Source of the DNA: an uncultured Pluralibacter sp.
GTDB taxonomy: Bacteria > Pseudomonadota > Gammaproteobacteria > Enterobacterales > Enterobacteriaceae
Assembly (NCBI RefSeq): GCF_913775985.1
Contig: NZ_CAJYMB010000014.1
Location: forward strand, 62,001 to 126,000
Length of the DNA: 64,000 bases
Reading direction: 5' to 3'
Shown: piece after piece, positions 24,304 through 38,952 of the stretch
Layout: each line of letters begins with the position of its first letter
How positions within the stretch are numbered: the stretch's first letter is position 1
Program-made: the position numbers and the translations under genes
The notes under the pieces: model-generated
Seen by the model: the letters and a program-made list of their open reading frames with translations, nothing else
Database searches by the model: none
Told to the model about the DNA's origin: nothing

Positions 24304-25428
24304 TTAAAGCTGCTTTTCGTACAGGCGATAGTGCTTGTAGGGCTCGGCACCGATTTTCTTCAGAATGTTGTTCATCCCGGTATTGGTTTCGAGGATCCAG
24401 GACATCTCCAGCGCGTCGATGCCGCGCTTTTTGAACGGGTCGCGCAGGGCTTCAATCAGCAGCAGCGCGATAATTGGCCCAATGCGGCTGAACTGGTACT
24501 CGGCGCGCACGCCCATTAAAGGCACGCGGGCGGTGCGCACGCCGCTCACTTTCAGACGCCATAGCAGCTTGGCCCAGCCCAGCGGCAGCAGACGGCCGTG
24601 AAGATCCGCGGCAGCCTCATTGATGTTAGGCATTCCGACGATAAAGGCGCAGGGTTTGCCGTCGATTTCAGCGATGTGAATCATGTCATCGGGAACCAGG
24701 AACTTCAGCTGATCGCCCATGGTGGCGAACTCACGCTCGGTAAAGGGCACGAATCCCCAGTTATGCTGCCAGCCGGAGTTGAAAATCTCGCGTAATACCT
24801 GCATCTCTTCGGCGAACTTCTTGCGGTTGAGGCGGCGGATGGTCACCTGGGGACGCACCCGCTCCATCAGCTTGGCCAGCGACGGATTAAAGTGCAGATC
24901 GGTGCGCTTCATCCAGTACGCGATAAGGTCGACACCTTTGGTGTAGCCCTGTTGCTCAACGGCTGTTGCATAGTAAGGCTTGGCGTGGGGCATCATCACC
25001 GACGGCGGCGTGTTGAATCCTTCGATCAGCAGGCCGCTTTCCTGGTTAATGTTCAGGCTGAATGGGCCGGTAATTTTGCGCGCGCCCTGCGCCCGCAGCC
25101 ACTCTTCGGCGGCGGCAAACAGCGCGCTGAACACTTCCGGATCGTCGATAGCGTCAATCATACCGAAGTGGCCGGTATCCGCACCGTGTAGCTCGCGGTG
25201 CAGGGTGTCGATTTGCGCGGTTATGCGACCGACAATCTTTTCCTCTTTTATTGCCACCCAGGCCTGCCAGGTAATGTGGTCCGTACCGGGGTTTTTCTTC
25301 GAAAGGTGTTCTTCTCGCTCAATAATGAGGGGATCGATCCAGTTGGGATCATCGCGAAATAGCGTAGAGGGAAAAGCGATGAATTCCTTAAGTTTTTTCT
25401 TATCCTGGACTTTTTCGATACGAATCAT
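24304..25428 (-). CDS. yghO: YghO-like GNAT-fold N-acyltransferase, candidate bacterial ceramide synthase
   Basis: Cytoplasmic protein (374 aa) resembling E. coli YghO. It starts 'MIRIEKVQDKKKLKEFIAFP'. The first half reads as an N-terminal GNAT-like region ('WVAIKEEKIVGRITAQID', 'GHFGMIDAIDDPEVFSALF'); the second half has another acyltransferase-like core ('IHIAEIDGKPCAFIVGMPNI', 'ALEMSWILETNTGMNNIL'). From the published work on Caulobacter, the bacterial ceramide synthase bCerS is a large GNAT-related protein of this kind. Here the gene is divergent from an acyl-AMP ligase, reductase, ACP and oxoamine-synthase operon. I infer that it N-acylates a sphingoid base made by that operon. Family identity fairly sure; substrate inferred. 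Confidence 0.75.
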   Translation of the reverse strand: MIRIEKVQDKKKLKEFIAFPSTLFRDDPNWIDPLIIEREEHLSKKNPGTDHITWQAWVAIKEEKIVGRITAQIDTLHRELHGADTGHFGMIDAIDDPEVFSALFAAAEEWLRAQGARKITGPFSLNINQESGLLIEGFNTPPSVMMPHAKPYYATAVEQQGYTKGVDLIAYWMKRTDLHFNPSLAKLMERVRPQVTIRRLNRKKFAEEMQVLREIFNSGWQHNWGFVPFTEREFATMGDQLKFLVPDDMIHIAEIDGKPCAFIVGMPNINEAAADLHGRLLPLGWAKLLWRLKVSGVRTARVPLMGVRAEYQFSRIGPIIALLLIEALRDPFKKRGIDALEMSWILETNTGMNNILKKIGAEPYKHYRLYEKQL

Positions 25429-26127
25429 AACCAGCCTTAAACTTGATAAAATGACAGAAAAAAATGCGCATTAAGACACCACGAATTATCAGATGCACGG
25501 CTATTTAGCTGCATCATTACTAATCCATCAGAGTTAGAAAATGCGATCAATCCACTAGAGGTAGGATAATGCAATATTTGTCTTTACTGCAGGTTTAGTA
25601 AAATGCGATGCGAATACAACAACTATATTACAGTTCATCACTCGCTTTACCGTTTGTGAAAAATATTGAGTGTAAAAAAGTATGCAAGGCGATGATTATA
25701 CCTTTTCAGCGTTAATTGAAATTGCTTTATTGAGCGTTATTACAGCAAATGCAATTAATTGCTAAACAGATTGACTGCTTCAGGACTATTTTTTAGCACT
25801 TGATGCTGTTGTCGGGCGGAATCGCAAACTAAGCGTACACTTTTTAAAATCTTCCGTCATACTGGTCGAGTTATATCCATCTTTCTGGGTCAATCACCAC
25901 AGGATCGCTCGTGCAGTTGCTAAGAATGCCGCGTACAAGCCTGATGTGGAATTGCCTCACGAATATGAGTGTCTACTTTTTCACCGTTTATGTTGACGAG
26001 CGTGGGTTTATTAGTATAAGATATGGTAGAATGAAAATTTATTATTACAATATTATAAATAAATTTTTACAAAATACACCATCTTCCCCCCAAGTGAATA
26101 TCTGTATCATTCGGTGATTTTGAATCT
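25429..26127. promoter_or_regulatory. AT-rich divergent control region between the yghO-like and acyl-AMP ligase genes
   Basis: About 700 bases, clearly richer in A and T than the flanking genes, with no convincing gene. It holds a long dyad (25492-25515) and repeated short blocks containing AATGCGAT (about 25540 and 25601). Long T- and A-rich stretches up to 26090 suggest silencing by H-NS-type proteins. GGTGA at 26116-26120 is the best ribosome site for the acyl-AMP ligase. Confidence 0.5.
25492..25515. repeat. Inverted repeat upstream of the yghO-like gene
   Basis: GATGCA-cg-GCTA-tt-TAGC-TGCATC: two nested arms with one two-base bulge, centred 75 bases before the yghO-like start. It could be a protein operator or a hairpin. 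No known regulator consensus recognised. Confidence 0.5.
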
Positions 26128-38041: not shown

Positions 38042-38229
38042 GAAAAAACCTGCTTTGAAAAATTTGCTGTATATTAATTGATTCTGAGTTCAGAATATTT
38101 GCGCCGCGTGCCGTGGCCCCTTTATTTCAGGCTAGGTTATACACCTTATTGCCATTTAATGCGCGCTGCCTTGAGGATATCTGAATAAGGGAGTATTTTC
38201 TTACAATATTTTATGATGTGAGTATTTTT

Positions 38230-38952
38230 ATGCCTTCTAAACTCCCACCACTTATCGCGGTAATTGGTAGCGATGGTTCTGGAAAATCAACGGTCTGCGA
38301 AAATCTCCTCCCCTACGTAGAAAAATATGGCCCGGTTGCGCAGGTGCATCTGGGTAAACAGGCGGGCAACGTTGGCCGCGCCATCAGCAACCTTCCTCTG
38401 ATGGGGAAGAAGGTTGGAAAATCCATTGAAAAGCACAAGGTCAAAACGGCAAAAGAGCTGCCGGGCCTCGGCCCTGCCCTTGTCGTGATGTTCTTTGTCC
38501 TGCGCCGCCTGCTGCGCTTTCGCCATATGCTCTCCTGCCGTCGCCAGGGCAATATCATCCTGACCGACCGCTATCCGCAGGAGCAGATCCCAGGCGCCTA
38601 TGACGGCACCGTTTTCCCGCGCGACGTGCCGGGCAACGCGCTGGTTTCCTGGATGCGCAAGCAGGAGCAGAAAGCCTTCCACTGGATGGCAAGCGTTAAG
38701 CCGGACCTGGTGATCAAGCTGAATGTCGATCTCGACGTGGCCTGCGCCCGCAAGCCGGACCACCGCCGCGAAGCGCTGGAGAAGAAAATCGCCATCACGC
38801 CGCAGCTGACCTTTAACGGCGCGCATATCGTCAATATTGATGCCAACCAGCCGCTGAAAGACGTGATTGCCGACGCGGAAAAAGCGGTCGCTGATTACAT
38901 GGCGTCTGCAGGCTACGGTTACGCCGGACAGGCGCAGCCTCAGGCCAGCTAA
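38230..38952 (+). CDS. yghT: P-loop kinase-like ATP-binding protein YghT
   Basis: Third paralogue (240 aa from ATG 38230; a GTG four codons upstream is possible). Walker A 'AVIGSDGSGKSTVCENL', 'ILTDRYPQEQIPGAYDG' and 'CARKPDHRREALEKKI' follow the same scheme as YghR and YghS. The E. coli genes have the same yghQRS-minus, yghT-plus arrangement, so the three are a conserved set. Having three closely related kinases side by side suggests different acceptors or a hetero-oligomer. Last island gene before rsmJ. Confidence 0.82.
   Translation: MPSKLPPLIAVIGSDGSGKSTVCENLLPYVEKYGPVAQVHLGKQAGNVGRAISNLPLMGKKVGKSIEKHKVKTAKELPGLGPALVVMFFVLRRLLRFRHMLSCRRQGNIILTDRYPQEQIPGAYDGTVFPRDVPGNALVSWMRKQEQKAFHWMASVKPDLVIKLNVDLDVACARKPDHRREALEKKIAITPQLTFNGAHIVNIDANQPLKDVIADAEKAVADYMASAGYGYAGQAQPQAS

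Follow-up and report, generated by a model that had tools for sequence, protein, structure and literature searches.

A ceramide gene cluster in Pluralibacter is tied to a facing module of kinase-like, CHAD-fold and candidate lipid-export genes

Introduction

Two bacterial ceramide gene clusters are the closest described relatives of the locus analysed here, which occupies positions 24304-38952 of a 64,000-nucleotide stretch of DNA (the window) from an uncultured Pluralibacter sp. (GCF_913775985.1, contig NZ_CAJYMB010000014.1, positions 62,001 to 126,000 of the forward strand). In the part of PMC9386255 (2022) drawn on here, the acyl carrier protein AcpR of Escherichia coli BL21 carries phosphopantetheine and is charged by AasR, and Spt prefers acyl-AcpR as its substrate; the same source describes the five ceramide genes, yghO included, as clustered in both Caulobacter and BL21, puts forward the roles of E. 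coli yghO and epi as proposals, and proposes YghO as an N-acyltransferase. Its main text, to the extent available to us, does not contain the words transport, kinase, flippase or export and, as far as this word search shows, leaves untreated an eight-gene module that faces the five genes. In the sections of PMC11324152 (2024) used here, the Caulobacter crescentus cluster CC_1152-CC_1168 is described as combining the five ceramide genes with a flippase, with a second LptF/LptG pair for which lipid export is proposed, and with LptC2, a ceramide kinase and Cpg head-group enzymes; E. coli is absent from the legend of its Fig. 7. The portions of PMC11324152 and PMC11087976 that we consulted describe the route of bacterial sphingolipids across the envelope as unknown.

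We find that the five genes of BL21 recur in the Pluralibacter locus with their arrangement unchanged, yghO being divergent from aasR-cerR(epi)-acpR-spt. All named genes are open reading frames, and the 14 genes between uspA and rsmJ continue beyond spt with a facing series (an hchA-like gene, lptG2, lptF2, ytfJ2, a gene for a 276-residue protein, yghQ, yghR and yghS) and a divergent yghT. The island is real; its first half is known from BL21, its second half is newly tied to the first by strong comparative evidence, and its chemistry is a prediction. As far as the open-licence PMC literature shows, what is new is the facing module (lptG2, lptF2, ytfJ2, the CHAD-fold gene, yghQ, yghR, yghS and yghT) and its tie to Spt, since among the matches listed in that literature no paper links yghQ, yghR, yghS, yghT or the CHAD protein to sphingolipids.

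Results

A serine palmitoyltransferase-type ceramide gene set

The oxoamine synthase encoded by spt (29091-30266, + strand) appears to be a serine palmitoyltransferase (SPT) and not a BioF or Kbl enzyme, as the original prediction required of it. It scores 617 bits against NF047599 (cut-off 500), versus 334 bits against the BioF model and 299 bits against the glycine C-acetyltransferase model; among solved structures it matches bacterial SPTs with up to 397 bits, Kbl with 209 bits, and entries named BioF or BioF/Kbl with at most 204 bits. Directly upstream, and overlapping the spt start, acpR (28844-29104, +; PF00550) encodes a dedicated acyl carrier protein of 86 residues with the same GLESIK stretch as BL21 AcpR. 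The other two genes of the spt operon are aasR (26128-27897), whose product is a fatty acyl-AMP ligase and acyl-AcpR synthetase homologue (NF006624, 864 bits; cut-off 600), and cerR (epi; 27887-28813), which encodes an NAD-dependent epimerase-like ceramide reductase homologue (PF01370) with no evident signal peptide on reading.

The divergent gene at 24304-25428 (- strand) encodes a GNAT-like ceramide synthase homologue of 374 residues, CerS (YghO). It reaches 20.5 bits against PF00583, just below the cut-off of 20.7, and its assignment comes from 79% identity to BL21 YghO and from relatives present in the Spt loci of other proteobacteria, so that the homology which the original prediction demanded of this gene is also borne out. 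Identities to BL21 are 76% for AasR, 70% for CerR, 84% for AcpR and 82% for Spt. Spt, homologues of CerS, CerR and AasR and a dedicated AcpR thus make up, by family models and identity, a ceramide pathway gene set, and the earlier correspondence of five genes to such a set stands. The original prediction also described enterobacteria as not classically sphingolipid makers, which is dated: the BL21 set and the activities of its AcpR, AasR and Spt were published in 2022 (PMC9386255, in the part used here). The gene set and its linkage hold up; the yghO assignment is not novel, having been made in that source.

In the K-12 strain MG1655, YghO (L010, 3129043-3130215) is annotated as a putative DNA-binding transcriptional regulator, whereas by homology it would be an N-acyltransferase, and the start annotated for it falls within IS5. 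One island-bearing genome (G836, locus L084) has an extra spt-acpR pair.

The facing module travels with spt

We then consider whether the facing genes belong to the same pathway. A sample of the host's family has 37 YghR-bearing genomes among 392 and 37 Spt-bearing ones among 384, and the two sets of 37 are the same; Fisher's test on an assumed shared set of 384 gives p ~2e-52, a value that counts kin genomes as independent and joins samples slightly unequal in size. In an order-wide sample, Spt is present in 6 of 394 genomes and the 276-residue protein in 5 of 394, all within those six. Because of this co-occurrence with Spt, we regard the membership of yghQ, yghR, yghS and yghT in the pathway of the ceramide genes as well supported by genome comparison, in agreement with the earlier suggestion that yghO to yghT are parts of one pathway.

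Gene neighbourhoods point the same way. Each core gene is found in 33 to 37 of the 37 fetched island neighbourhoods; eight of the 37 genomes are without at least one core gene in view, which we provisionally attribute to stretch ends or to the filter on overlapping open reading frames, and in G1000 LptF2/G2 are on another contig. The commonest gene order is that of the window (11 loci, and two more with hchA), followed by one with the second module inverted (9), and others split the module; gene order is shuffled among genera, with the gene set staying together. Three genomes from other families of Enterobacterales carry yghQ, yghR, yghS and yghT with cerS, cerR, acpR and spt, the set being spread over two contigs in G030; in the fetched stretches, two of the three have the 276-residue gene and none has aasR or lptF2/G2.

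A YghR profile scan of named genomes extends this picture, taking the best 80 of 86 loci, which were then grouped by record title, with a Martelella alba record counted as Enterobacterales. Among these, 40 of 42 Enterobacterales loci have spt in view, the other two being at contig ends, as do 18 of 38 loci from outside the order. YghR relatives accompany Spt in Rhodanobacter, Luteibacter and betaproteobacterial records; one Rhodanobacter locus (L147) holds yghS, yghR, an LpxO-like hydroxylase gene, aasR, cerR, acpR, spt, yghQ and the 276-residue gene as overlapping reading frames on one strand. The genes yghR, yghT and yghQ lie away from spt in records of Sphingobium and Sphingopyxis, but each of the two genomes encodes an Spt that exceeds the alpha-type cut-off. 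Of the 30 Spt loci fetched from outside Enterobacterales, 14 have a diacylglycerol kinase (DAGK)-type gene within ~10 kb; DAGK-type and YghR/S kinases mostly occur apart, and stand together, side by side, in L120, L152 and L162.

Three kinase-like paralogues

The three proteins encoded by yghR (36503-37285, -), yghS (37328-38041, -) and the divergent yghT (38218-38952, +) are 31-39% identical to one another (YghR and YghS, 37%) and fall into families of 43, 41 and 42 members, respectively. The P-loop and the DRxPQ and RKPDH columns are conserved at 90% or more in these families, and the motifs are kept across them. A structure prediction for YghR (predicted local distance difference test score, pLDDT, 78.8) has thymidylate kinases as its closest fold match, and together with the P-loop this indicates, at the level of a model, a P-loop kinase fold of thymidylate kinase type. 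In model scans, all three proteins give weak, below-cut-off matches to thymidylate kinase or AAA models and none to an ABC-type family. Although YghR shares fold and P-loop with thymidylate kinase, the three proteins differ from it in their own DRxPQ and RKPDH motifs and in scores of 26-29 bits where the curated dTMP kinase cut-off is 83 (28.1 for YghR, 26.5 for YghS and 28.8 for YghT against 83.25). The thymidylate-kinase fold transfers phosphate from ATP onto a phosphate, and we therefore propose that YghR, YghS and YghT might phosphorylate ceramide stepwise.

A defence role for YghR was considered and dismissed as weak: among five proteins scanned, PADLOC PDC-M51B matched YghR at 9.8e-05 over residues 19-47, which are the P-loop. 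In many foreign loci (L147, L149-L151, L153, L158, L159, L161, L170 and others), yghR is followed by an LpxO-like aspartyl/asparaginyl hydroxylase gene, a candidate ceramide hydroxylase, and several of these loci also have a DUF2147 gene.

A 276-residue protein with a predicted CHAD fold

The gene at 33974-34804 (-) encodes a protein of 276 residues from an unnamed family. Its predicted structure (pLDDT 92.6) has CHAD structures as all five of its best VIA-align entries, so that the CHAD fold is predicted to span the whole protein. Invariant basic residues are K87, R90, K94, H95, R97, H195, R198 and K199. CHAD domains bind polyphosphate, as stated in the part of PMC6537752 used here; the fold would be shared with those domains, whereas the sequence lies below Pfam detection and polyphosphate binding by this protein is a prediction.

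A fusion of the CHAD-fold protein with part of LptG (P0243) looks like a product of a deletion in E. coli and was left out of the evidence. The host genome has a second copy of the CHAD-fold gene (L012:10009-10914, contig C150 of G000), 67% identical, flanked by genes for a peptidase M20 and for a LysR regulator; no other island gene was matched in the 20-kb stretch around it.

Candidate export genes and a second LptF/LptG pair

The facing genes had been read from the sequence as LptF/LptG-like permeases, a flippase, a periplasmic protein and three kinase-like proteins, and model matches agree, weakly so for the kinases. LptG2 (31066-32226, -) and LptF2 (32142-33212, -) exceed the curated cut-offs of TIGR04408 (302 bits) and TIGR04407 (293 bits). 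LptG2 probably starts later than its reading frame, near 32145, because its alignment to BL21 begins at residue 28; ytfJ2 (33261-33869, -) probably starts near 33836. YtfJ2 (PF09695) is 59% identical to K-12 YtfJ and has a signal-like N-terminus by eye, consistent with a periplasmic protein. YghQ (34801-36138, -), of the MOP/polysaccharide-type flippase family (PF01943), is 76% identical to its BL21 counterpart. Loss of yghQ is connected with modest chlorhexidine tolerance in the portions of PMC9278758 and PMC8170033 consulted.

The host genome (160 contigs) contains a canonical LptF/LptG pair, the island pair and one LptC. The island pair passes the same curated cut-offs as the lipopolysaccharide exporter, but is only ~27% identical to the K-12 proteins and forms its own clades in a tree of 59 rows. 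In this tree, one branch (100/99) unites the island LptG copies with canonical gammaproteobacterial LptG, and another (96/92), which also takes in a further same-class copy (L080), unites the island LptF copies with canonical gammaproteobacterial LptF; both are set apart from Spt-cluster copies of another class, most likely Alphaproteobacteria. Outside the class, the copies labelled canonical are two rows from a single genome, and one of these two rows is placed with the copies from Spt clusters. We take separate recruitment of an LptF/LptG pair for sphingolipids in gammaproteobacteria as a provisional conclusion, because canonical out-of-class copies are few and some branches are long; it suggests that such recruitment has happened more than once.

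For comparison with Caulobacter we use G713, whose gene order (a YghQ relative just upstream of aasR, in a cluster that also includes LptC and LptF/G) is the one given for Caulobacter in the part of PMC11324152 seen. With the Caulobacter-type cluster the island has in common, besides the five genes of ceramide synthesis, a flippase gene and a second LptF/LptG pair. That pair falls on a different, gammaproteobacterial branch, and where the G713 cluster has its own LptC, with two LptC matches in the genome, we find no dedicated LptC here, the host genome giving a single match. In place of the ceramide kinase and Cpg enzymes of Caulobacter (PMC11324152, as above), the island has three kinase-like P-loop proteins and the CHAD-fold protein: the DAGK-type protein of L120, used as a phmmer query for a Caulobacter-type ceramide kinase, has no match in the 64-kb window, and the island proteins scanned include no nucleotidyltransferase family of the CpgD kind (CpgD itself was not a query) and no glycosyltransferase family. 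They likewise include no ABC ATPase and no LptB, LptA or LptD family, the rest of the genome not having been searched for these. The description of the island as complete was therefore too strong, given the lack of a dedicated LptC and of an ABC ATPase within these scopes and three kinases without an assigned substrate.

In a Halioglobus metagenome-assembled genome, an LptA/LptD_N-like gene (L181:12093-12629) lies between yghQ and lptF2-lptG2, which hints at a fuller second Lpt bridge there. A Sphingobium wenxiniae protein with a GINT1_N (glucosamine inositolphosphorylceramide transferase) domain is encoded close to yghQ (L169:13637-14596).

The island in E. coli and its loss from K-12

The whole island is found in the records of E. 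coli BL21, where all 13 core genes lie between glcC and pitB with no pseudogene flag, and of strain D9, where yghQ is frameshifted. Among 5426 E. coli genomes, a synthesis query (within aasR to spt) is covered at 80% or more in 4027 and a yghQRST query in 4524. MG1655 has yghO, then IS5, a yghQ cut to 355 of 449 residues, and yghR, yghS and yghT; by subtraction, ~8.4 kb of the island has been lost beside IS5. The expectation that K-12 keeps only yghO and yghQRST is thus confirmed in MG1655, with yghQ truncated.

Candidate PhoP-like boxes upstream of aasR

The divergent region between cerS and aasR (25429-26127 in the window) contains a PhoP-box-like repeat in relatives from Serratia, Tatumella and Pantoea. 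Of 35 cerS-aasR regions, 6 have a perfect TGTTTA-N5-TGTTTA box, where simulation gives a mean of 0.0, and 10 have a match of 11/12 or better, where it gives 0.6. All seven perfect boxes in the scanned enterobacterial island stretches (L013, L036, L040-L042, L052 and L082) are upstream of aasR and on its strand, in two genus groups, Serratia and Tatumella. Among named loci, perfect boxes are present in 7 of 8 Serratia titles, in Pantoea brenneri and in Tatumella (L118, L122, L128, L130, L134, L136, L141, L146 and L180), and near-perfect ones in Mangrovibacter, Pantoea sp. A4 and the Martelella alba record. The 64-kb window has no match of at least 11/12, nor do the scanned Escherichia, Pseudocitrobacter and Erwinia records have one upstream of aasR. 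No -10 hexamer stands consistently 12 nucleotides downstream of the boxes, and PhoP control of the synthesis operon is for this reason a lead only. Motifs for PhoB, RcsB, CpxR, Fur, RpoE and PmrA in the two divergent regions score close to shuffled controls, PhoB at cerS-aasR being furthest from them (9.69 versus 9.20 of 14).

A proposed pathway and its alternatives

Homologues of five ceramide enzymes and a conserved eight-gene module lead us to propose, as the best-founded reading and one we hold to be more likely than not, that the island makes ceramide, phosphorylates it and would carry the product to the outer membrane. The direct basis is homology, predicted fold, co-occurrence and conserved neighbourhood. 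By analogy with the BL21 orthologues (76-84% identical), AasR would charge AcpR with a fatty acid and Spt would join the acyl group to serine; CerS/YghO would then add the second acyl chain and CerR reduce the ketone, steps studied by others in Caulobacter. YghR, YghS and YghT are predicted to phosphorylate the lipid head, on a hydroxyl and then on phosphate, yielding ceramide mono- to oligophosphate. The CHAD-fold protein might bind the phosphate-rich head at the membrane beside YghQ, which would flip the phosphorylated ceramide, and LptF2/LptG2, working with host LptB and LptC/A/D and perhaps with YtfJ2 as a periplasmic partner, would lift the lipid to the outer membrane. Both export and the lipid product are predictions.

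Several observations weigh against this proposal. The YghR model is only moderate and is poor at residues 57-60, 77-90 and 135-138, and the substrates of thymidylate kinases are soluble nucleotides, not lipids. At sequence level, proof of CHAD homology was attempted and failed: a profile search of the PDB with the protein gave zero matches, the best Foldseek E value is 0.11, and Pfam CHAD (PF05235) does not match the window's protein and gives the distant G030 copy 15.6 bits (cut-off 25.6). Outside Enterobacterales, 20 of 38 YghR loci have no spt in view (the two genomes examined both have Spt elsewhere), and yghR/yghS lie within ~10 kb of spt in 1 of 30 fetched loci (35 available), so that YghRST would be one option among several. 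LptF2/G2 are missing from G074, with two LptF/LptG matches genome-wide, and the second Lpt pair is therefore not obligatory. Decayed islands exist in G1069, E. coli D9 and MG1655. Finally, Caulobacter CerR is periplasmic according to the part of PMC11087976 seen, a poor fit with cytoplasmic kinases acting after it.

Among alternatives, YghR, YghS and YghT may not be lipid kinases at all: as P-loop proteins that adjoin transport genes in most of the 37 genomes, with no assigned substrate and a partly low-confidence YghR model, they could be ATP-driven regulators or energisers of flippase or Lpt export, or makers of a soluble activated precursor. We think this improbable, though it is the strongest of the alternatives: no ABC-type family is among the matches of these proteins, they remain with the ceramide genes in G074 where LptF2/G2 are absent, and their companions in foreign loci are a lipid kinase of DAGK type, a hydroxylase resembling LpxO or a phospholipid-methyltransferase-like gene. 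Somewhat less probable again is a Caulobacter-like ceramide phosphoglycerate product (CPG/CPG2) with head-group enzymes encoded elsewhere in the genome. The five enzymes, the flippase and the second LptF/G pair are as in the Caulobacter cluster (PMC11324152, in the sections used), but the window lacks a match to the L120 kinase and the island proteins scanned lack a nucleotidyltransferase family, the rest of the genome not having been searched for Cpg proteins.

That two unrelated systems hitchhike together, one being a ceramide operon and the other a set for exporting a glycolipid or polysaccharide (yghQRST and lptFG2), seems quite unlikely to us. The halves are indeed separate modules whose relative order and orientation vary, and E. 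coli records annotate yghQ as a lipopolysaccharide biosynthesis protein; their distributions over the 37 genomes are nevertheless identical, both sets interdigitate on one strand in Rhodanobacter, and the Sphingobium and Sphingopyxis yghR/T/Q cassettes, although away from spt, are in genomes that hold Spt. A decaying relic without present function is, in our estimate, the least credible of all. MG1655 has lost the middle of the island, yghQ is frameshifted in D9, G1069 (L025) has spt and yghQ split over several reading frames, and the window's hchA-like gene is truncated; against this, the window and BL21 both keep all 13 core genes as open frames, about three quarters or more of E. coli genomes cover the two queries, and the kinase motifs are kept across families.

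Returning to ceramide phosphorylation and export, a bolder form can be drawn that we offer as speculation, doubtful as a whole. YghR, YghS and YghT would be a new class of lipid kinases that builds a ceramide-linked oligophosphate head group; a divergent CHAD protein would read this head group, YghQ would flip the lipid, and a second Lpt system, evolved in gammaproteobacteria independently of alphaproteobacteria, would export it. The outer membrane of most E. coli would then contain a hidden anionic sphingolipid, which K-12 would have lost beside an insertion sequence and which would be PhoP-controlled in Serratia, Pantoea and Tatumella. In either form, the island offers named candidates for each envelope-crossing step in BL21, a strain in standard laboratory use, with MG1655 as a natural partial loss. 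If the pathway is right, the uncharacterised E. coli genes yghQ, yghR, yghS and yghT and an unnamed protein gain a pathway, and the K-12 label of YghO as a putative transcriptional regulator falls.

Neighbouring features

Between spt and lptG2 lies the hchA-like gene (30334-31032, -; NF003168), an extra outside the core island. It encodes 232 residues and is without the first 52 residues of its relative in G001, and it is found inside the island in 2 of 37 island genomes, both of the window's genus. In G001, of the same genus, the island likewise adjoins uspA. The phosphate transporter gene pitB adjoins yghT in 10 of 37 genomes, from few genera, and was not used as evidence. In the same-genus genome, an IS4-family transposase gene (L021:246-1622) adjoins yghT at the island edge. 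The gap between yghQ and yghR contains an intergenic repeat at 36348-36486 that reads as similar to an enterobacterial repetitive intergenic consensus (ERIC), and the query that includes it matches at a median of 9 places per genome of E. coli and at 46223 places altogether.

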